35,247 bases of DNA from a virus. Location: IMG/VR virus record IMGVR_UViG_3300035035_000030, positions 1-35,247 of that record. The stretch is one strand, 5' to 3'. Under the pieces are notes generated by a model, which saw only the letters and a list, made by a program, of their open reading frames with translations, was not told the origin of the DNA and ran no database searches. The position numbers were made by a program, and so were the translations under genes. Below are positions 1,149 to 33,148 of this stretch, one piece after another (the stretch's first letter is position 1; each line of letters starts with the position of its first letter).

Positions 1149-1298
1149 ATGTTTACAGAAGCAGAACTCAGTTTGATTTGCATACATATTGGCAAGTTGC
1201 ATACTGAAAAAGTTATTGAACGAATAGAAGTACCAACAGATTTAGTCGAGCTATTGGTAGATACTGTTTACGAATATCAAATGAACTCAATCAAATGA
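1149..1298 (+). CDS. Small early protein, 49 aa
   Basis: The ORF starts at ATG 1149, preceded by AAAGGAGAACCACA, a strong ribosome binding site that shares its AACCACA tail with the site before 220. It ends at TGA 1296-1298 and overlaps the integrase start as ATGA. The product begins MFTEAELSLICIHIGKLHTE and looks like a compact two-helix acidic peptide of no recognised family. Immediate coupling to the integrase makes a regulatory or accessory role in integration conceivable, for example an excisionase, but it is more acidic than typical Xis proteins and no DNA-binding motif is visible. Confidence 0.55.
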   Translation: MFTEAELSLICIHIGKLHTEKVIERIEVPTDLVELLVDTVYEYQMNSIK

Positions 1299-2134
1299 AA
1301 AGAAAAATGCTCAAACTTTCTGAAGCAACTAGAGTTGTATATAAAAGAAGAAAGAACGGAACTAAATCTGCTACTAATTTCTTGATAGGAATGAAGCATA
1401 ACATCAAAGCACTAGGGGATTTACCAGTAAATAAAATTACTAGACCTCTGATTAATCAAATGATGGATACCTTAAAACAAGAACACAAAAATAGTAATGC
1501 AGTAATCAATCAGAAGATGGGCTACCTGAGAGTCGTACTTCAAGAGATGGAGGAAGACGGATACATTGAAATGATTAAGTTCCCAAAACCTAGACCAACT
1601 AAGAACAGCAAGGTTCATTATCTAACTAACGATATGGAGAAAGAATTGCTTGATTATTTAGTTGAGCATGAATACAAAGCAGCTAAAAATATTATTGAAT
1701 GTCTTATTGATTTAGGTTGCAGAGTGAATGAATTACTAGGACTTGAAAAAAGATTCGTTGACTTTGACAACAACCAAATCAACTTCAATGATAGAAAGAA
1801 CGATCAAGCTGTAGCTGTACCCATGACTAACAGAGTAAGAGATAATTTAACTAATCATTGTATTGGTCTAAAAGATTTTGATAAAGTTTTTTTATATAAC
1901 TACTCTGAACTAAATGCTATCTGGCAGAAGGCTAGGAAGGACTTAGGCTATGCCGATAAGAAGTTCTATACCTTACACCTATGCCGACATACATGTGCAT
2001 CAAGGCTAGTACAAAGAGGAGTACCGATACTGTTAGTTAAGGATTGGCTAGGGCATGAGGACATAGAGAACACCATGATCTATGCACACTTAGCACCCAA
2101 AGCTTTGCACTCTGTAGTGGAGGTGTTGAACTGA
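1295..2134 (+). CDS. int: Tyrosine-recombinase integrase
   Basis: This 279-residue phage integrase would recombine a phage attP with a host attB. Residues 1-100 look like an N-terminal arm and core-binding domain; the catalytic domain follows. Visible catalytic residues are Arg143 (LGCRVNELLGL), a candidate Lys168, His228 and Arg231 (LHLCRH), His254 (WLGHED) and the nucleophile Tyr263 (TMIYAHL). All are in the expected order and spacing, so the enzyme looks intact. The start ATG overlaps the preceding stop, and its own TGA shares one base with the next gene, so it is embedded in the early operon that leads to the RNA polymerase, the location seen in several marine T7-like phages. No attP can be defined from the window alone. 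Confidence 0.95.
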   Translation: MKRKMLKLSEATRVVYKRRKNGTKSATNFLIGMKHNIKALGDLPVNKITRPLINQMMDTLKQEHKNSNAVINQKMGYLRVVLQEMEEDGYIEMIKFPKPRPTKNSKVHYLTNDMEKELLDYLVEHEYKAAKNIIECLIDLGCRVNELLGLEKRFVDFDNNQINFNDRKNDQAVAVPMTNRVRDNLTNHCIGLKDFDKVFLYNYSELNAIWQKARKDLGYADKKFYTLHLCRHTCASRLVQRGVPILLVKDWLGHEDIENTMIYAHLAPKALHSVVEVLN

Positions 2135-2349: not shown

Positions 2350-4745
2350 TGGTTGAACCAAGTAAGAAACAACTAGAGCTAGAGCAAAGTATCTCTAGTA
2401 TCTCAGCCTATAACAAGATCAGTAAACAAAACAAAAACATAGAGAAGGGCAGGGAGTCCGAGAACTATTATGCTCGCAACATTATAGAGTCAGGACTACA
2501 GAAGTTAAGCAAAGCAATACAAGATCATATAGATGAAAGTCTTAGCGGTAAGGTAGGAGTTAAAGCTGTCTCTGCTTTGTTTCTTTCTCAGTTCCCAGAC
2601 GTAGATGTAGTTGCCTTTATTGCTTTTAAAGTATTACTAGATAATGCTTCGCAGTTAAAGACAACTGTATCTACTGCACTCAAGATAGGGCAGATGCTAG
2701 AAGACGAACTTAGGTTTACTAAGTTTGAAGAGCTAGACCCTAAACATTTTAAGAACATAAAGAAACATACCAGAGATACCAAGAACGAAGGCTATAAAAG
2801 AAACCTTATGGTCTTTCACATGAACAGTAAAGGCCATGAGTTTAAGACTTGGACAAGGGGTAATAAACTTAAGGTTGGGCTGAAGTTGATCGAGTTGATA
2901 ATGATAAAAATAAATATGGTCAACCTAGTAAACAAGAAGGTAGGCAAAGCAACTACAAGTTATGTTGTCTTTACTGATAGGTTTATGAAATATATAAGGC
3001 AGGGTAGATCAAATAGGATTGCTGCCTTTCCTATCTACCTACCTTGTCTTGATGTACCAAGAGAGTGGACTTCAATAGATAGCGGTGGTTACTTTACAGA
3101 CAGACTAAAAACAAAAGCAATCAAGAGTTCTAATCAAGACTACCTAAACACACTACGAGGAGAAGACTTAACAACAAGTCTGAAAGCGTTAACTCTGGCG
3201 AGTCAGACAGCTTGGGGTGTAAATCAGTTTGTACTAGAAACTCTTGAATACTGTTGGGAGGAACGAATAGAGGTTGGTTCATTGATTGATAGGGAGCTTG
3301 CAGAACTGCCAACAAAACCACTCGATATAGATACCAATAAGGAAGCAAGAAAAGAGTGGCGGTATATGGCTTCTTTAATCCATGATATGAACGCACAGAA
3401 TATGGTCAAGCGGTATCAGATACTATCCATGATTGATACAGCAAAAAGATATTGTGACGAAAAATTTTATCACGTTTATCAATTTGATTTTACTGGTCGA
3501 ATGTACCCACTAACTGCACACTTTCACCCACAAGGTAATGACATAGCAAGAGGGCTGCATAGATTCTATGAAGGTGCAGAGATAAAGACTAAACAAGACT
3601 TAAACTGGTTAGCCATAGCAGGTGCAAACCATTGGGGTATGAATAAACATACCTATGAGGAACGACTTGAGTGGGCTTACATAGAAGGAACTGATCTAGC
3701 AGAAGAAGTTTACAAAGACCCAATAGGTAATGTTGGTATATGGGGTAAAGCTAAAGAGCCATTTCAATTCTTGGCTTGGTGTAAAGAGTGGTGTGAGTTT
3801 CAATGCGAAGGGTATGGTTATATCTCACATCATGTCTGCTGTCTTGATGGTACGAACAATGGCTATCAACACATAGCAGGTCTTATATCTAATCAACATT
3901 TAGCTAATAAAGTTAACCTACAAAATGTTAAACAACCACAGGATTTATATAAACAAATACTTGATGTTCTCTTGATGCTACTGAAGTATGACAAGTCTGA
4001 GCAAGCACCAATCTGGTATGCACAGAAAGATAAGTTGACAAGAAAGTTTATAAAAAAACCTGTACTTATGATTCCATATAACTCAACTACATTCGGCATA
4101 GCAAACTACATAGAAAAATATTTTGTAAATGAAAATGTTTTTATCGCAAAAAATTTTAAGAATAATTTTTATCTGGCAACCATAATTGAACAGGCAGTTA
4201 AGTATGTAACCCCAGAAAGCTATGAAGTATTGAAGTACTTGCAGACTACAGCTTTATGTTTTAACAAAGAGAATAAACCTATCTCTTGGCATACACCATC
4301 AGGGTTTCTTGTACAACAGAACTACTACAAGAATGATGTCAAAAGAGTAAAGACTAAACTAAGTAACTCAAGTGTCAGGCTAAGTCTTGCTGAACCAGAT
4401 ACTACTAAGGTGGATAAACGTAGACAGGCACAGGGTTTTCCTAGTAATTATATACATAGTCTTGACGCTGCACATTGTCACATGAGTTTGGTTGAAGCTA
4501 GTAAGCATGGACTAAAAAACTTTTGTGTTATCCACGACTGTTATGGAAGCCCTGCAAGTGAGCTTCAAAGGTTTATCGAATGTGTAAAGCAAAGTTTCTT
4601 TAACATTTATAGTGACAACAATCTAGATAATTTATACCACCAAACAACACAACAACTAAGTGATACAAGTAAGTTACCAGCAGCACTAGATATGGGAGAC
4701 TATAACATCACAGATGTGTTGACAGCACCATATATATTTACATAG
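2349..4745 (+). CDS. T7-like single-subunit RNA polymerase
   Basis: This is the phage DNA-directed RNA polymerase that transcribes middle and late genes, 798 residues against 883 in T7, with most of the shortening towards the N-terminus. Catalytic landmarks are clear: the palm aspartate Asp500 in LDGTNNGYQH, the fingers motif Arg565-x3-Lys569-x7-Tyr577 with exact T7 spacing, SNYIHSLDAAH near the C-terminal region, and His729-Asp730 (VIHDCYG), matching T7 His811-Asp812. DFTGRMYPL and HPQGNDIARG are further family blocks. All key residues are present, so it should be active. It is translated by overlap with the preceding small gene, probably from a host-RNA-polymerase transcript, and is followed by a 74-bp gap before the SSB gene. 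Confidence 0.97.
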   Translation: MVEPSKKQLELEQSISSISAYNKISKQNKNIEKGRESENYYARNIIESGLQKLSKAIQDHIDESLSGKVGVKAVSALFLSQFPDVDVVAFIAFKVLLDNASQLKTTVSTALKIGQMLEDELRFTKFEELDPKHFKNIKKHTRDTKNEGYKRNLMVFHMNSKGHEFKTWTRGNKLKVGLKLIELIMIKINMVNLVNKKVGKATTSYVVFTDRFMKYIRQGRSNRIAAFPIYLPCLDVPREWTSIDSGGYFTDRLKTKAIKSSNQDYLNTLRGEDLTTSLKALTLASQTAWGVNQFVLETLEYCWEERIEVGSLIDRELAELPTKPLDIDTNKEARKEWRYMASLIHDMNAQNMVKRYQILSMIDTAKRYCDEKFYHVYQFDFTGRMYPLTAHFHPQGNDIARGLHRFYEGAEIKTKQDLNWLAIAGANHWGMNKHTYEERLEWAYIEGTDLAEEVYKDPIGNVGIWGKAKEPFQFLAWCKEWCEFQCEGYGYISHHVCCLDGTNNGYQHIAGLISNQHLANKVNLQNVKQPQDLYKQILDVLLMLLKYDKSEQAPIWYAQKDKLTRKFIKKPVLMIPYNSTTFGIANYIEKYFVNENVFIAKNFKNNFYLATIIEQAVKYVTPESYEVLKYLQTTALCFNKENKPISWHTPSGFLVQQNYYKNDVKRVKTKLSNSSVRLSLAEPDTTKVDKRRQAQGFPSNYIHSLDAAHCHMSLVEASKHGLKNFCVIHDCYGSPASELQRFIECVKQSFFNIYSDNNLDNLYHQTTQQLSDTSKLPAALDMGDYNITDVLTAPYIFT

Positions 4746-4763
4746 CAAGAGATCAAGGTATAG

Positions 4764-4786
4764 TTAGGGAACGTCTTTTATAGACG
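4764..4786 (+). promoter_or_regulatory. Hairpin and TTAGGGA element after RNA polymerase
   Basis: The 74-bp gap between RNA polymerase and SSB contains TTAGGGA (4764-4770), a 5-bp stem CGTCT/AGACG (4772-4776 with 4782-4786) and the string TATAG. TTAGGGA and TATAG also occur, with a shorter spacing, at the T7-promoter-like site at 35031-35046. It has no T-tract, so it is not a convincing terminator. It could be a diverged phage promoter or an RNA processing site; this is inference. Confidence 0.3.
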
Positions 4787-4819
4787 CATAAAAACGGAAA
4801 CCAAACCAAGGTATCAAAC

Positions 4820-5476
4820 ATGGAAGAACTCAAGCCTGAGACTATTAAGATAGTCACACCCAATCCTACTAACTTTAGGTATTCATATCTTGTAACCCCT
4901 GACGAGTACAAGGGTATCAAGAAATATAAAGCAGAATGTCTTATTAAAAAAGGCATAATGATGAAAGATGAAATGGGTAGAGAAGTTGATGCAGTAGAAC
5001 ATATCTACTCACAGCTAGAAGAACTACTAGAAAGATGGAAGGTTTCATTAAAAGAACACTATCCAGATAGAAAGTTTACCCTTACTAAAAATAAGTTTGG
5101 AGAACCATCTCTACCTTATTACTTAGAAGATGAATACCTAGTCATCAAGACCAGCAAGAAAGCTGGTGGAGTAAAACAAAATGGTGATGTATGGACTAAT
5201 CCACCTGTCACTTTCTGGGCTAACGAAGATCCTTTACGTCTTATGACAGACGAAGAAAAAAAGGAGTACGAAAAGATTAGTCCTATGACAGAAGGGCAGA
5301 TGTCTATGAAGTGTAGTGGCTATGACGCAGGTGCTAATGGTGTCGGTATCAGATGCCAACCTTTACAAGTCATAGTTAGAAAGCACGTTGAGTGGACAGG
5401 CAGCCCAGATTTTGAAGCAGCACCACCGAGTAGTTATGAAGAAAAAAGTACTGCGTCAACAGCAGCCGACTTCTAA
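4820..5476 (+). CDS. Single-stranded DNA-binding protein, gp2.5-like
   Basis: The 218-residue protein sits directly after the RNA polymerase, exactly where T7 has gp2.5 (232 aa), and has the expected size. It coats ssDNA during replication and recombination. It has an OB-fold-like mixture of strands (WTNPPVTFWA, CQPLQVIVRKHVEW) and ends in AADF, keeping the C-terminal phenylalanine that is important in T7 gp2.5. The tail is only modestly acidic: about six Asp/Glu in the last 30 residues, compared with the densely acidic T7 tail that contacts gp5 polymerase and gp4 helicase. The start ATG has AAGG upstream. Its end overlaps the endonuclease gene by 41 bases. Confidence 0.85.
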   Translation: MEELKPETIKIVTPNPTNFRYSYLVTPDEYKGIKKYKAECLIKKGIMMKDEMGREVDAVEHIYSQLEELLERWKVSLKEHYPDRKFTLTKNKFGEPSLPYYLEDEYLVIKTSKKAGGVKQNGDVWTNPPVTFWANEDPLRLMTDEEKKEYEKISPMTEGQMSMKCSGYDAGANGVGIRCQPLQVIVRKHVEWTGSPDFEAAPPSSYEEKSTASTAADF

Positions 5477-11698: not shown

Positions 11699-11700
11699 TT

Positions 11701-11820
11701 ATGAAAAAACTAACAGACAAACAAAAAAAGAATCTTGATAAAACTGGTGATGGTAAAATCAGTAAAGAAGATTTTTTACTTCTTCGTAGATTGAAGAAAA
11801 AGAAAAATGGCAAAGCTTAG
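11701..11820 (+). CDS. Tiny EF-hand-like protein, 39 aa
   Basis: The 39-residue peptide contains the segment DKTGDGKISKED (residues 13-24). It follows the 12-residue EF-hand loop: Asp at 1, Asp at 5, Gly at 6, Ile at 8 and an acidic residue (Asp) at 12, with Thr instead of Asp/Asn at 3. It is flanked by basic helices (MKKLTDKQKKNL and LLLRRLKKKK). Ca2+ binding is plausible but not proven. The gene begins two bases after the previous stop and its end overlaps the next gene by 14 bases. Confidence 0.65.
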   Translation: MKKLTDKQKKNLDKTGDGKISKEDFLLLRRLKKKKNGKA

Positions 11821-17683: not shown

Positions 17684-18226
17684 ATGTGTTCAGTACCAGC
17701 TATGGTAGTAGGTTCAGCAGGGTTAAACCTGTTTTCGGGTCTTGCTATGCGTGGTGCTGCCAAAAAAAATGCTAGAGATACATATAAAAGGGGATTACAA
17801 GCAAACCAATCAGTAGAAGACTCCTTTGGTAATCAACAATCAGCTTTAGGATTTAGACAGAGAGAAAATCAAGCAATAGCAGCACAAAAAAAATTAGCAC
17901 AAACAATACAAGGATTACAAGCAAGAGGAACTGCAAGAACAAGTGGTATAACAGGTATAACTGCTAGATTGATATTAGGAGATTTAGAAAGACAAACAGC
18001 TAATGCAAGAGAATCTATCAATCAAACTTTAGAGTCAACGACTCGTCAGTACAGAAGAAATGTACAGGGTCTTGTAGCAGAACGAGACAGTAGACGTAAT
18101 CAAATACAAAGTCAGATAAATCAAGCATATAATCAGATACCTTCTTTAAGTTCAGTTATCTTGGGAGCAGCTTCCCAAGGACTTTCTACCTTTGGATCAG
18201 TTTATGGTAATCCAAAATTTGGCTAA
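17684..18226 (+). CDS. Internal virion protein B, gp14-like
   Basis: The 180-residue protein (T7 gp14: 196) is ejected into the host envelope and forms the outer-membrane part of the DNA ejection channel. It begins MCSVPAMVVGSAGLNLFSGL, a Met-Cys start and hydrophobic segment like T7 MCWAAA. A long Gln-rich helical region (LGFRQRENQAIAAQKKLAQ) with an ARGTARTSGITG turn follows, then another helix ending QINQAYNQIPSLSSVILGAA. The next gene's start shares one base with its stop. Confidence 0.85.
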   Translation: MCSVPAMVVGSAGLNLFSGLAMRGAAKKNARDTYKRGLQANQSVEDSFGNQQSALGFRQRENQAIAAQKKLAQTIQGLQARGTARTSGITGITARLILGDLERQTANARESINQTLESTTRQYRRNVQGLVAERDSRRNQIQSQINQAYNQIPSLSSVILGAASQGLSTFGSVYGNPKFG

Positions 18227-20913
18227 TGACTAACAGTTTTCAAAGTACAGCTTTTCAATCTGCTACAAACCCTGTAGATACTTTTGTGCAACCTGTAACT
18301 GTGCAGCCTAAAAGTGGTGCACAGGAACTTGCAGAAATTTTGCAAATAGTAAATCCAACATTACAACAATTTATACAAAAAAAAGCAATAGAAAAAAGAG
18401 ATCAACAAATAGATGAGGGAAGGTTATTAGTAGCAAATGCCTCACCTAAAGAACTTGCAGAAATAAGAAAACAAGTAGAAGCAAACTCTGACAAAAAAGG
18501 GTTTAGAAAATTTCTTGGTACAAATTATTTTATGCAATATGGAATAGAACAACAATTAGCAATTAATATAGGTAATAGCCAACAAGCAAAAACAAAAAAA
18601 TTTTTTAACGAATATGTTGTTGACGTTGAATTAGAAAATGGAACTGTAATACAACAACCTTTATCTCAATTTGATATAAACTCTGAAGCTTTTAATAAAG
18701 CAGTTAATGAATTTCAAAGCTCACAACTAGCTAATACTAGAGGTATTAGATCAAGTTTAATAAATGAATATATACTTCCTAAACAAAGTGAAGCATTACA
18801 AAAAGTATACAGCGATCAAGAAACAAAATTAGCAGAGTCAAAAATTAAACAAGCTAGTATATTGTTTAATGATTCAGTTTTAAATTCTTGGTTTAGTATA
18901 GATAACTATAACGACAATATAGAGTTAAATTTAATAGATGATAACTATACAGAGAAAGACAGAATTAAAAATAATGGTCTTTCGCAGGCAGAATTTTTAG
19001 CTTTAAAAGAATTGCAAGGCAATGTTGATTCTATGGTAAACAGAGGTCTTGCTGCCACAGTATCTCCTTCAAAAATGATAGAAGTAGTAAAAACAAATGT
19101 ATTAAAAATTCTTGATTATTATGAAAGCAATAATCTTGATATGGATATAGGTTACGAAGAAGTAGAAGAATATATTAACTGGATAGGAAATTTAAAAGTT
19201 ACTAATGGTATGCCTTTAAGTAGTTTTTATATAGCAGATGGTGAAGATAAAATTGAAACTCTACTAACAGATGTATATGACAAGAAAGAAGATATTAAGA
19301 AAAAACAGAATGATTACAATAAAATAAGCGATCAAAATACTATATCTGATACTTTAAATAATCTAGATTTTTCTCGTACTCAATTTCAAGATGGTAAAGA
19401 AGCATTAAATTATTTTAAAAATATAGGCAATACATTAGATGCACTAGTTGATAGATTTCCAGAAGAAATTGAATTTTTATATAAACAATATGATCTTAGA
19501 AACTTTAGTGTTGATGATTTCTTTTTTGAATTAGAAACGGAATATGATGCAGGTACAGTAACGCAAAGTCAAGCCTTAATACAACTAACAGATGTCATGC
19601 AAGCTTTAGGACCAAATGCTTCTAAAGCAGATAGAGCAAAATATACTCAATTAAAAAAATATTTAAAAGAAACAGACAATAAAAGTTTAGAGCAAAGATT
19701 TCCAGCAATGAAAGAGTTAATAAAGCATGGTCAAAAAACTGTTGGTAAAGTAAGAGATGGTTTGCGTGTAATTACAGATGCTGATGATGTAGATAGAATG
19801 GAAGATTTAAATATAAAATTAAAAAGTTTAGTTAAAGAAAATGGAGGAGTTGATGCACAAATAGATATAAGAGGTCAAAGAACAACAGTTAGAAATTGGT
19901 ATTACGGTGAGTTGAGAAAATTAAAAGACCCAAGAAGGTTTGGTTCATATGAGTTTTATGATTCAGTTTTAGATTTATCAAAGCCTATAGAATTTGAAGA
20001 AGTAGTAGAAGATGATGATGGAGATGGTCAAGATGATGGCAAGACAGTAAATATACAAGAACAAAAGGTTTTAACTTACGATACAAATACAAAGTTATTT
20101 AGTGAAGTTAATACTAATGAATTACAAGTAGGACCAACTACTACAGTTGTATCTATTAATGGTGCAGTTACACCTGCTGGCGAATCGTTACGTCAAAATT
20201 TAAAAATAAAATCATTTGAGAATTTTAATGTTGATTTTTATAATGCAACTTTTGAAGACAAACAAACAGAAACAAGAAATGAACAATTACTTAGAGATGA
20301 TTTAGAAGCTAGTGCTTTTAGTGGTGACTCACCTACTACAGTTGAAGTTGAACAAGGAGACACTTTAAGTGAGTTAGCAGATCAGTTTGGCTCGTCAGTA
20401 CAAGCAATTATGGAAGCTAATAATCTTACTAATCCAGATATGATAAGAGTAGGGCAAGAGCTAGTCATGCCAATAGTTGAAAGAATAAATATGAAAGAAG
20501 TAAAAGATAATCAGATAAAAGCATTAGACGTTATTTTAAAAGATACAGACAAGACAAAAGTAATACCTCAACCTAAAATAGAAGAAATGCTATTGGCTGT
20601 GGGTTTTGAACCAGACATTGCAAAAATTATGGCTGCTGTTTCAATGGCAGAATCAGCAGGTGATCCTATGATTGATACTGTCAAATCTGGTTTAGATCCT
20701 GAGAAGAAAAAAGAATTTTCTATAGGTTTGTTACAGCTAAATATGAAAGATGATAGAGACAGATTATTAAATGTATTTGATATTGAATCTGAAGAAGAGT
20801 TATATGACCCTATTATTAATGTAATTGCAGCCAAGCGACTATATGATGAGCAAGGGCTTAATGCTTGGGGTGCATACAAAAATGGTTCCTATAAAAAGTT
20901 TCTAAAGAACTAA
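18226..20913 (+). CDS. Internal virion protein C with LysM and transglycosylase
   Basis: The 895-residue protein lies at the T7 gp15 position (747 aa) and its long helical N-terminal two thirds are ejection-channel-like (QPKSGAQELAEILQIVNPTL near the start). It differs at the C-terminus. A LysM peptidoglycan-binding motif spans about 704-750 (VEVEQGDTLSELADQFGSS to GQELVMPI). A lytic-transglycosylase-like domain follows at about 785-890, with candidate catalytic Glu809 (SMAESAGDP), then SIGLLQLN and NAWGAYKNGSYKKF. In T7 the transglycosylase lies at the N-terminus of gp16 instead. It probably cuts the cell wall locally during DNA entry. It is the only muralytic domain that I recognise in the window. 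Confidence 0.88.
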   Translation: MTNSFQSTAFQSATNPVDTFVQPVTVQPKSGAQELAEILQIVNPTLQQFIQKKAIEKRDQQIDEGRLLVANASPKELAEIRKQVEANSDKKGFRKFLGTNYFMQYGIEQQLAINIGNSQQAKTKKFFNEYVVDVELENGTVIQQPLSQFDINSEAFNKAVNEFQSSQLANTRGIRSSLINEYILPKQSEALQKVYSDQETKLAESKIKQASILFNDSVLNSWFSIDNYNDNIELNLIDDNYTEKDRIKNNGLSQAEFLALKELQGNVDSMVNRGLAATVSPSKMIEVVKTNVLKILDYYESNNLDMDIGYEEVEEYINWIGNLKVTNGMPLSSFYIADGEDKIETLLTDVYDKKEDIKKKQNDYNKISDQNTISDTLNNLDFSRTQFQDGKEALNYFKNIGNTLDALVDRFPEEIEFLYKQYDLRNFSVDDFFFELETEYDAGTVTQSQALIQLTDVMQALGPNASKADRAKYTQLKKYLKETDNKSLEQRFPAMKELIKHGQKTVGKVRDGLRVITDADDVDRMEDLNIKLKSLVKENGGVDAQIDIRGQRTTVRNWYYGELRKLKDPRRFGSYEFYDSVLDLSKPIEFEEVVEDDDGDGQDDGKTVNIQEQKVLTYDTNTKLFSEVNTNELQVGPTTTVVSINGAVTPAGESLRQNLKIKSFENFNVDFYNATFEDKQTETRNEQLLRDDLEASAFSGDSPTTVEVEQGDTLSELADQFGSSVQAIMEANNLTNPDMIRVGQELVMPIVERINMKEVKDNQIKALDVILKDTDKTKVIPQPKIEEMLLAVGFEPDIAKIMAAVSMAESAGDPMIDTVKSGLDPEKKKEFSIGLLQLNMKDDRDRLLNVFDIESEEELYDPIINVIAAKRLYDEQGLNAWGAYKNGSYKKFLKN

Positions 20914-31208: not shown

Positions 31209-31265
31209 GTAGGTAGTGTTCACATACCTGTATTGGGTAACTCTTGTGGGGTCTAAACTACCTAC
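31209..31265. terminator. Inverted repeat between convergent genes
   Basis: GTAGGTAGT (31209-31217) and ACTACCTAC (31257-31265) are perfect inverted repeats of 9 bp, 39 bases apart, between the plus-strand gene ending at 31207 and the minus-strand gene ending at 31262, whose TAG lies in the repeat. Without T-tracts it may be a bidirectional terminator or a recombination footprint of the inserted minus-strand block. Confidence 0.4.
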
Positions 31266-31804
31266 TTGAATTTATCTGCGTTGGCTTTTACATAACTTCG
31301 TATATTGATTACATCATTGCAGATGTATGCGAACTTAGAAGCAGGGTTTATCATGTAGCCTGATGCGTGAAGCTGTCCGCACTTCAAGATACGAACTAGC
31401 TGCTTATCATGCACTTGCTTGTCTAATTCTTCTTTGGCTAGGTCTAGCTTTACTTTTGCTAATTCAGAACACGTATCATTATTAGTTCCTAGCGGTATCA
31501 TAAAACTCATCTGAAAACCCCAACCTTGATTAACACTATATGTTGGACCTTCTGGATTAGGGTTTCTTGCATCATTACCTGTATAAAAAGGTGTAAATGC
31601 CATAGTTGGTTGACTACAAACTAAGTTTCCAAACTGTTGTTTACCTGTCATTCCATTATTAACATTCATATTCTGATTGATAATACTAGAATTACCAATC
31701 GCATTTGGTTGAGCCTGTACGTTTGTGTCGCCTTCGGCTCTTGCTTTATTACTGACTAAAGACAGACAAAGAAGTGATAACGCTAGTAGTGTTGATCGTG
31801 TCAT
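31262..31804 (-). CDS. Exported protein with four cysteines
   Basis: The 180-residue product is read from ATG 31804, beginning MTRSTLLALSLLCLSLVSNK; an in-frame TTG at 31822 with an AGG upstream is the alternative start. A Sec signal peptide is evident (hydrophobic core LLALSLLCLSLV, cleavage likely after ARA). The mature part has an Asn/Gln-rich opening (NAIGNSSIINQNMNVNNGM), an aromatic middle (TPFYTGNDARNPNPEGPTYS) and four cysteines in LVCSQP, DTCSEL, LKCGQL and YICNDV that could form two disulfides. It looks periplasmic or surface-exposed. I know similar proteins only as hypotheticals in marine cyanophages. It overlaps the preceding minus-strand gene. Confidence 0.75.
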   Translation of the reverse strand: MTRSTLLALSLLCLSLVSNKARAEGDTNVQAQPNAIGNSSIINQNMNVNNGMTGKQQFGNLVCSQPTMAFTPFYTGNDARNPNPEGPTYSVNQGWGFQMSFMIPLGTNNDTCSELAKVKLDLAKEELDKQVHDKQLVRILKCGQLHASGYMINPASKFAYICNDVINIRSYVKANADKFK

Positions 31805-32108
31805 TCTGTGTGATCTTTTCAATCATTAAACCTGCTGCTCTTGAAGTCACATTTAATGACCAATCTTTTGAAGTATCTGCAACAGTAAATACTGCATCAC
31901 CGCCAGATATGCCTGCTGATGCAGCTACGCTTATATTAGAACCTTCCCAAGTATTTATAGTAGACCCATATTTTTCTGTGACTACGCTGCGAGTTATAGT
32001 TTGTGTAGTGTTTTCAGTTCTGTTACTTGAACCAGTAGTCCACGTTGGCACTCCATTTGCGTAACAAGGTGCAACTAAAAACAAACTTAGTAGTAATAGT
32101 TTTTTCAT
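31749..32108 (-). CDS. Small exported protein, 119 aa
   Basis: The product begins MKKLLLLSLFLVAPCYANGV, a classic signal peptide with probable cleavage after CYA (residue 17). The mature chain is Thr/Ser/Asn-rich and beta-like (TWTTGSSNRTENTTQTITRS, VAASAGISGGDAVFTVADTS). AGGT before ATG 32108 (minus strand) is a plausible ribosome binding site. Its start overlaps the stop of the upstream membrane protein as ATGA and its end overlaps the four-cysteine protein, so the three are one operon. Envelope modification or superinfection control is a hypothesis. Confidence 0.75.
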   Translation of the reverse strand: MKKLLLLSLFLVAPCYANGVPTWTTGSSNRTENTTQTITRSVVTEKYGSTINTWEGSNISVAASAGISGGDAVFTVADTSKDWSLNVTSRAAGLMIEKITQNDTINTTSVITSLSVFSQ

Positions 32109-32359
32109 TTGATACCTACATTAGTGTCTTTGTTATCTACTATCTTAGCAGCGTTATTAGGTTTCTTTTTGTTCACGCTGATACCATAAGAACCTAAGAC
32201 CCCACTTGTAAGTCCAGCTAAGAAAGCTCCGTCATTACGGATCTTATCCATATATCCAAGAGTCATCATTGCAAGCGACCAACAAAGAATCATAAATCGG
32301 ACAGCATGACCAAACAGTTCACCCCAATCCGTACCTTCTTTTTCTTCTTGTTCTTCCAT
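32105..32359 (-). CDS. Small membrane protein, holin-like
   Basis: The 84-residue product has a charged N-terminus (MEEQEEKEGTDWGELFGHAV), two likely membrane helices (about 18-37, RFMILCWSLAMMTLGYM; about 44-62, GAFLAGLTSGVLGSYGI) and a basic hydrophilic tail (SVNKKKPNNAAKIV). Size, two helices and charged ends fit a class II holin, located as T7 gp17.5 is, between fibre and terminase genes, but the gene is on the minus strand, which is unusual for a late lysis gene. It leads the three-gene minus-strand operon; an unrelated envelope role is equally possible. Confidence 0.7.
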   Translation of the reverse strand: MEEQEEKEGTDWGELFGHAVRFMILCWSLAMMTLGYMDKIRNDGAFLAGLTSGVLGSYGISVNKKKPNNAAKIVDNKDTNVGIK

Positions 32360-32373
32360 AGAAGTGCAAACTC

Positions 32374-32402
32374 TTGTCTAATACTAGCAAGTTAGCTATG
32401 TT
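32374..32402 (+). promoter_or_regulatory. Candidate sigma70 promoter, plus strand
   Basis: TTGTCT (32374-32379) and TATGTT (32397-32402) lie 17 bases apart in the 65-bp gap between the divergent genes starting at 32359 and 32425, a good spacing for a host promoter reading toward the terminase genes. The hexamers match the consensus at four of six positions each, so support is moderate. Confidence 0.4.
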
Positions 32403-32408
32403 TGAAAA
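32381..32408 (-). promoter_or_regulatory. Candidate sigma70 promoter, minus strand
   Basis: Read on the minus strand, TTTTCA (32408-32403) and TAGTAT (32386-32381) are 16 bases apart, each matching the host consensus at four of six positions. It would drive the minus-strand membrane and exported proteins and overlaps the plus-strand candidate, giving a divergent control region. Confidence 0.35.
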
Positions 32409-32424
32409 GTAACACAAGATTATT

Positions 32425-32589
32425 ATGCTAAAAATCTTAAAACCAATACTACTAAAGTTCTTTACTACAACTGCTGTAAAGAGATTAGTAGTTGATCTGC
32501 TTAGAGCAATCTGCAAACAAACTACCAACACACTAGATGATCGTGCTGTTGACATGTTAGAACAACAGTTGTTTCCTAAAATGAACTGA
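32425..32589 (+). CDS. Small amphipathic protein, 54 aa
   Basis: ATG 32425 to TGA 32587-32589 encodes MLKILKPILLKFFTTTAVKR, then LVVDLLRAICKQTTNTLDDR and a short acidic helix. The first part is an amphipathic or membrane-associating helix rich in Lys, Leu and Ile. Similar short proteins occur near the terminase genes of marine phages, function unknown. I prefer it over the minus-strand ORF covering the same bases because it sits one base before the next plus-strand gene and is preceded by the promoter-like site. Confidence 0.65.
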   Translation: MLKILKPILLKFFTTTAVKRLVVDLLRAICKQTTNTLDDRAVDMLEQQLFPKMN

Positions 32590-32926: not shown

Positions 32927-33148
32927 ATGGATAAAAATTTTAAAATCCTAGAAAAGTTACACTTACTTCTTGCAAAAGAACTAACAGATAAGATTACAAG
33001 TGGAGAAGCAAAGGCAGGGGATCTAAACGTAGCTAGACAGTTTTTAAAAGATAATGGTATTGAGTGCTTACCTGTAGAAAAGAACCCAATGCAAGAACTT
33101 ATGGAGAACTTACCAGACTTAGATGCTGTACCTTTAGCTGATTTATAA
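32927..33148 (+). CDS. Terminase small subunit, gp18-like
   Basis: The 73-residue product (T7 gp18: 89 aa) would recognise concatemeric DNA and stimulate the large subunit. It begins MDKNFKILEKLHLLLAKELT with DKITSGEAKAGDLNVARQFL, the helix-turn-helix-like pattern I associate with small terminase proteins of marine T7-like phages, followed by an acidic C-terminus (ENLPDLDAVPLADL). Sequence similarity to T7 gp18 is weak; position two genes before the large subunit is the stronger argument. Confidence 0.75.
   Translation: MDKNFKILEKLHLLLAKELTDKITSGEAKAGDLNVARQFLKDNGIECLPVEKNPMQELMENLPDLDAVPLADL

Follow-up and report, generated by a model that had tools for sequence, protein, structure and literature searches.

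Host-cell bursting by the cyanophages that carry the gene set described here has so far had no recognised genes. In the survey of Kongari et al. (2018), 20 of the 91 phages without spanins have Prochlorococcus or Synechococcus as host (PMC6139136). Those listed without identifiable spanins include P-SSP7, P-HM1, P-HM2, P-SSM2, P-SSM4, Syn1, Syn9, Syn19, S-SM1, S-PM2, Syn5, P60 and others, and the authors proposed that the host outer membrane is perhaps merely fragile (PMC6139136). Our own literature search for cyanophage and spanin found no paper whose title deals with lysis by cyanophages. Here we ask what role is played by three small genes, A, B and C, that many of these phages share.

We analysed one stretch of DNA, the window, a 35,247-base virus record from IMG/VR. 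It belongs to a P-SCSP2-like, T7-like cyanophage in the MPP-C clade that has marine Prochlorococcus as its host group. The nearest isolate is Prochlorococcus phage P-SCSP2, with a terminase identity of 91.6%. Genes A, B and C form a minus-strand cassette that has the tail-fibre region on one side and TerS, the gene for the small terminase subunit, on the other (Table 1). A first-pass annotation had described them as the only minus-strand genes, and this agrees with our finding that ten further minus-strand open reading frames (78-123 aa) have no PHROG match. It had also read the layout as that of a moron, expressed independently and perhaps excluding other phages, a proposal that we weigh below.

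Table 1. Positions of the cassette, its flanking elements and landmark genes in the window.
Feature	Position	Strand	Evidence or remark
Integrase	1295-2134		window phage
Internal virion protein, 895 aa, LysM and SLT_3 lysozyme-like domains	18226-20913		window
Flanking gene, 163 aa	30716..31207	+	phrog_9426, 3.6e-7; outside the cassette, context
Convergent-end hairpin, conserved stem and loop	31208..31265	.	folding, conservation, one compensatory pair
Gene C, 180 aa from ATG (186 aa from TTG 31822), secreted, phrog_1755/848	31262..31804	-	
B/C out-of-frame overlap, 56 nt	31749..31804	-	sequence
Gene B, 119 aa, secreted, cleavable signal peptide, phrog_650	31749..32108	-	
Gene A, 84 aa, two hydrophobic segments, DUF6450 (PF20048)	32105..32359	-	
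Divergent intergenic region, promoter-like block GTTACTT(t)CCAAACATAgCtA..TTGcTAgTATTAGACAAG	32360..32424	-	conserved across related loci
Flanking 54-aa gene, phrog_2738/402	32425..32589	+	phrog_2738, 3.1e-19; precedes TerS
Terminase small subunit, right-hand locus landmark	32927..33148	+	PF11123, 3.5e-20

One membrane protein and two exported proteins

PHROG matches of 1e-11 to 1e-25, together with homologues in 18 isolated P-SCSP phages (identity 84-99%), indicate that A, B and C are real genes. Their PHROG families (phrog_721/21865 for A, phrog_650 for B and phrog_848/1755 for C) are all labelled unknown function, and Pfam labels the A family DUF6450. No enzymatic or holin domain was recognised in the three proteins by Pfam or PHROG, Pfam gave no peptidoglycan-hydrolase match for B or C, and a PDB sequence search with all three found no significant relative. 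Members of these families in the P-SSP7, Syn9 and GC235-237 records carry no function label, and the S-SM1 record does not label GC235-237 as structural.

Gene A matches DUF6450 at 30.8 bits, against a Pfam gathering cut-off of 25, and phrog_21865 at 1.4e-11; its P-SSP7 homologue matches DUF6450 at 111 bits. Because it contains two hydrophobic segments, with hydropathy maxima at residues 19-35 and 46-62, we regard A as a small membrane protein. The homologue in P-SSP7, 043, is annotated with two transmembrane segments. The N terminus of A is acidic and its C-terminal half basic.

Genes B and C match phrog_650 at 8e-15 and phrog_1755 at 1.6e-25. Both begin with Sec signal peptides that end in AxA-type sites, CYA↓NG and ARA↓EG. 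Across family B, one signal-peptide alanine is invariant and a C-terminal SxFxQ motif is conserved. Mature C of the window has exactly four cysteines, whose columns are 100% conserved across about 400 sequences, and the four probably pair into two disulfides. These features bear out the first-pass description of one membrane and two exported proteins, one of them with four cysteines, and support its view that the products are directed to the envelope.

The genes overlap, as had also been noted, A with B by 4 nt and B with C by 56 nt. The coding start of the C signal peptide falls within the 3' end of B, and a B-C overlap is present in Syn9, P-HM2 and S-SM1 as well. In NATL1A-7 (3943-4827) and similar records, the annotated start of C lies far upstream, which gives a 294-aa gp165 that crosses part of B out of frame. 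The real start in records of this type is probably inside or just past the B overlap, and the C annotations of Syn9 and P-HM2 may be over-long too. The C gene annotated in P-GSP1 (3878-4594) continues in frame, at its end, into a protein that resembles the 54-aa phrog_402/2738 protein found next to the cassette in other phages.

The AlphaFold2 model of B has a mean pLDDT of 83.6 and places two long antiparallel β strands of 23-24 residues at the ends of the protein, with a small core between them. For C, the model consists of β strands followed by a 39-residue C-terminal helix; its mean pLDDT is 57, so this arrangement serves only as a lead. In Foldseek searches of the PDB, the best look-alikes of B are ring-forming pore stems, a weak likeness (E from 3.6e-3, Z at most 3.8, rmsd 7-8), and B also weakly resembles phage collar and tail proteins such as 8egr_I and 6iac_B. 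In the viral library, Foldseek and VIA found only members of the B and C families themselves. The PDB resemblances of both proteins fall below significance and were excluded as functional evidence.

Conserved elements at both ends of the cassette

Ahead of gene A, 56 of 85 related loci retain the block GTTACTT(t)CCAAACATAgCtA, which contains a candidate extended -10 element, TGcTAGTAT. Scans for sigma-70 consensus promoters and terminators at the cassette ends performed no better than chance. A search for a promoter motif common to this region and other intergenic regions of the window gave none clearly above shuffled sequences, the best being 15/20 against 11699-11806 (shuffle maximum 14). 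For the divergent promoter-like region of the first-pass annotation, the consensus scan alone thus stayed at chance level, but the block itself is conserved.

At the convergent end, where an inverted repeat had been reported, we found its arms, GTAGGTAGT at 31209-31217 and ACTACCTAC at 31257-31265. The hairpin that they form starts at the stop codon of C and has a minus-strand fold z of -2.35. It occurs in 67 related loci as 21 distinct sequences, with one compensatory C-G/G-C pair and the conserved loop bases TTTAGAC.CCACA...TGTGAAC. It has no T-run, differs from an ordinary intrinsic terminator and has no match in Rfam. We consider it a candidate transcription-end or processing element. The upstream block and the hairpins explain what had been seen at the two cassette ends. 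An invertible segment was also considered and rejected, as no long inverted-repeat pair was found at both ends.

P-SCSP1u and 10 other loci have an extra, terminator-like hairpin with a T-run between the upstream block and the start codon of A. Its stem covaries (CTGCCT/AGGCAG, CTACCT/AGGTAG, CTACCC/GGGTAG) around a conserved internal GTGGTCA. This hairpin, which is missing from the window, suggests that the cassette is controlled by attenuation or processing.

Distribution and layout in marine picocyanophages

A search for homologues of C found 405 phage records with the window protein and 443 with Syn9 gp165 queries. All are marine picocyanophages, mostly T4-like, with T7-like and other phages among them. 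The gene set is common to three morphotypes, namely T7-like, T4-like and P-HS2-type cyanophages; P-HS2 is described in the literature as a siphovirus. Of about 420 loci fetched, 396 are complete, and in 394 of these B is the gene directly before C; A is found no more than 1.2 kb upstream in 296. Eight of the named genomes have both B and C, and five have neither.

The surroundings of the genes vary with phage type. P-SSP7 has the same order, 043 (two transmembrane segments), 044 (signal peptide) and 045, co-directional and inside the late operon. The 163-aa gene that flanks the cassette in the window resembles P-SSP7 042 in position and sequence. In P-SSP7, S-TIP37, P-GSP1 and NATL1A-7, the module sits between tail-fibre genes and TerS, and P-SCSP1, P-SCSP2 and P-RSP2 carry it in the opposite orientation to its neighbours on the tail-fibre side. 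The T4-like cyanophages have an overlapping B-C pair within a block B'-B-C that is antiparallel to its neighbours (gp167-166-165 in Syn9, GC237-236-235 in P-HM2 and S-SM1), among replication genes and far from structural genes. The extra B-like secreted protein of the Syn9 type is gp167. Gene A of these phages lies on the strand opposite B-C, in the early-gene region. P-HS2 has the order A-B'-B-C.

In the window clade the genes form a separate transcription unit with its own conserved upstream block, and the independent expression proposed in the first pass may apply there; in P-SSP7-type phages the genes are part of the late operon.

Bacterial genomes gave no homologues of the cassette other than in cyanomyovirus-like contigs. 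A host-derived origin was rejected: the hits in bacterial contigs are accompanied by Syn9 neighbour genes, so we take these to be mis-binned cyanomyovirus contigs. Nonlabens xiamenensis NZ_RMVE01000006.1 and five other bacterial or archaeal contigs bear Syn9-like gene blocks. These contigs look like cyanomyovirus contamination; the Nonlabens one, at 188 kb, is the size of an entire phage.

Association with late expression

In 25 of 59 Syn9-like loci, the T4 late motif NATAAATA occurs no more than 120 nt from the gene that opens the block (shuffle control: mean 2.2, maximum 7). Its TAAATA core is present in 51 of the 59 upstream regions, mostly about 30 nt upstream, a distance at which it precedes 7% of the starts of opposite-strand neighbours. 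The P-SSP7 module belongs to the class III late genes, the class transcribed last. Promoters and position together suggest that the module is expressed late.

Alternation with endolysins

We compared 25 phages, 16 with the module and nine marine picocyanophages from which C is absent. In two of the latter, P60 and S-CBP42, an endolysin occupies the interval between tail fibre and TerS. None of the 16 module-bearing phages has a P60-type endolysin, and fifteen of them have no stand-alone PF00959, PF01510 or PF01464 enzyme; for the other, the S45-C4 phage, the search was limited to PF00959. Lysozyme domains in module-bearing phages occur only inside proteins or frames of at least 925 aa. The search covered four hydrolase families, so module-bearing phages could contain an endolysin of an unrecognised kind. 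Seven of the nine phages without C carry a stand-alone lysozyme, which is a P60-type enzyme in P60, S-CBP42, S-B28, S-CREM2, KBS-S-2A and S-N03 and a 169-aa frame in S-PM2. Neither module nor endolysin was found in Syn5 and PSS2, so lysis may be possible without both.

The alternation of module and endolysin gives p = 7e-5 by Fisher's exact test across the 25 phages, uncorrected for relatedness and with five endolysin carriers chosen by their endolysin. Restricted to phages from the spanin paper's list, it gives p = 0.09. The window itself has no P60-type endolysin. Its sole recognised wall hydrolase is the internal virion protein with LysM and SLT_3 domains, probably a wall-degrading ejection protein.

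A candidate lysis module and its alternatives

The reading that we favour, and to which we give an even chance on the strength of a correlational comparison, is that A-B-C serves marine picocyanophages as a late lysis module. The alternation with endolysins, the position in a late operon and the late promoters argue for a role in lysis over that of a moron, and a lysis role is what the first-pass annotation had named as counting against its own proposal. Under the lysis reading, A would be a small inner-membrane protein of two segments that acts like a holin. B and C would be exported through the Sec pathway ahead of lysis, C probably held by its two disulfides and B making a long β arm. Together they would breach or attack the peptidoglycan or outer-membrane layer, either when A fires or once they have accumulated. 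The module would thereby substitute for the endolysin and spanin genes missing from these phages. In the window clade it would be inverted and have its own promoter, an arrangement unusual for a T7-like lysis gene.

Likenesses to known lysis systems are partial. Two-component spanins (lambda Rz/Rz1, T7 gp18.5/18.7) are, like B-C, two small exported proteins encoded by overlapping, out-of-frame genes. B-C also lies near terminase genes in T7-like relatives, and the phages that carry it have Gram-negative hosts, many of them being listed as spanin-less (PMC6139136). In contrast to an i-spanin, which has an N-terminal transmembrane segment and a periplasmic coiled coil, B has a cleavable signal and a β-rich mature domain. 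The lipobox of an o-spanin is absent from nearly all B and C sequences, including those of the window. Unlike spanins, C has four invariant cysteines, and we detected no sequence relation. Because a membrane-anchored i-spanin and a lipobox o-spanin are both missing, we do not class B-C as a spanin pair. Gene A is holin-like in size, hydropathy and topology only: as in class II holins of the lambdoid S21 type, it is short, with two hydrophobic segments, an acidic N terminus and a basic C-terminal half, but it matches no holin family and lies opposite B-C in T4-like phages. Given that strand arrangement, A may not be a functional part of the module. The P60-type Synechococcus phage endolysin shares the interval of the module and alternates with it in our sample, but it is a single-gene enzyme annotated as lysozyme and has no sequence relation to A, B or C.

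A more specific version of the lysis reading seems to us tentative and on balance doubtful. It supposes an unrecognised lysis route in which a holin-like trigger, A, is joined by a secreted disulfide protein, C, and its β-hairpin partner, B, which come together in the outer envelope and may form a large β-barrel pore. The three would replace the endolysin and spanin genes on which other phages of Gram-negative hosts rely. Podo-, myo- and sipho-type phages that infect one host group would have passed this route among themselves.

Late expression and envelope targeting would fit other roles too. B and C might coat or alter the outer membrane late in infection without lysing the cell, with A an unrelated membrane partner; this could keep progeny or superinfecting phages from re-adsorbing, or stabilise the envelope. 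We think such remodelling unlikely but worth serious consideration, as it accommodates the export signals, the late promoters and the presence of the genes in most marine cyanophages, and agrees with the earlier idea of exclusion in all but timing. It leaves unexplained why a dedicated endolysin tends to occur in phages without the module and why P60 and S-CBP42 have one in the very same interval. We found no evidence that the genes exclude other phages. The tail-fibre genes next to the module and the weak Foldseek likeness of B to 8egr_I and 6iac_B would instead fit B and C joining the particle or forming surface fibres after late export, the strands of B serving as a stalk. However, cleavable Sec signals are atypical of virion proteins assembled in the cytoplasm, the T4-like loci are remote from structural genes and the structural matches are non-significant, so that we consider this improbable.

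The moron proposal, an accessory and independent unit expressed in lysogeny for conversion of the host, draws on the inversion of the unit and its own conserved block in the window clade. The window phage carries an integrase as well, so a temperate phase is conceivable. The proposal fails on the distribution of the genes among cyanophages: they are not a sporadic insertion but are shared by three cyanophage types in some 400 records, with B and C apart in just two complete loci. They also lie within the late operon of P-SSP7-type phages and behind T4 late promoters in T4-like phages, and we now regard a moron as very unlikely. We judge just as improbable a periplasmic inhibitor or quality-control function, for example a guard against host periplasmic proteases or against thylakoid or envelope stress. 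The disulfide-type cysteine pattern of C would suit it, as would the restriction to phages of one host group and the failure to find a host homologue, but nothing specific points to it and it does not account for the alternation with endolysins.

If the lysis reading is true, one conserved gene set, carried by several hundred cyanophages, would time a major route of fixed-carbon release in the surface ocean. A function would then be available for three large families, DUF6450, phrog_650 and phrog_848/1755.

Several further observations concern the neighbourhood of the cassette and the rest of the window. P-SCSP1 phages encode their large terminase on the cassette strand; the tail-fibre and 54-aa genes run the other way. 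The large terminase of P-SCSP1u is about 51% identical to that of the window, and the right end has been rearranged inside one clade. P-RSP2 encodes an additional 82-aa hydrophobic protein (4162-4410) adjoining the inverted cassette; it has no Pfam match and is a possible second membrane component of lysis. Near the left end of the window, positions 859-1131 encode a 90-aa protein whose zinc-ribbon domain is NrdR-like (PF22811, 30.6 bits).
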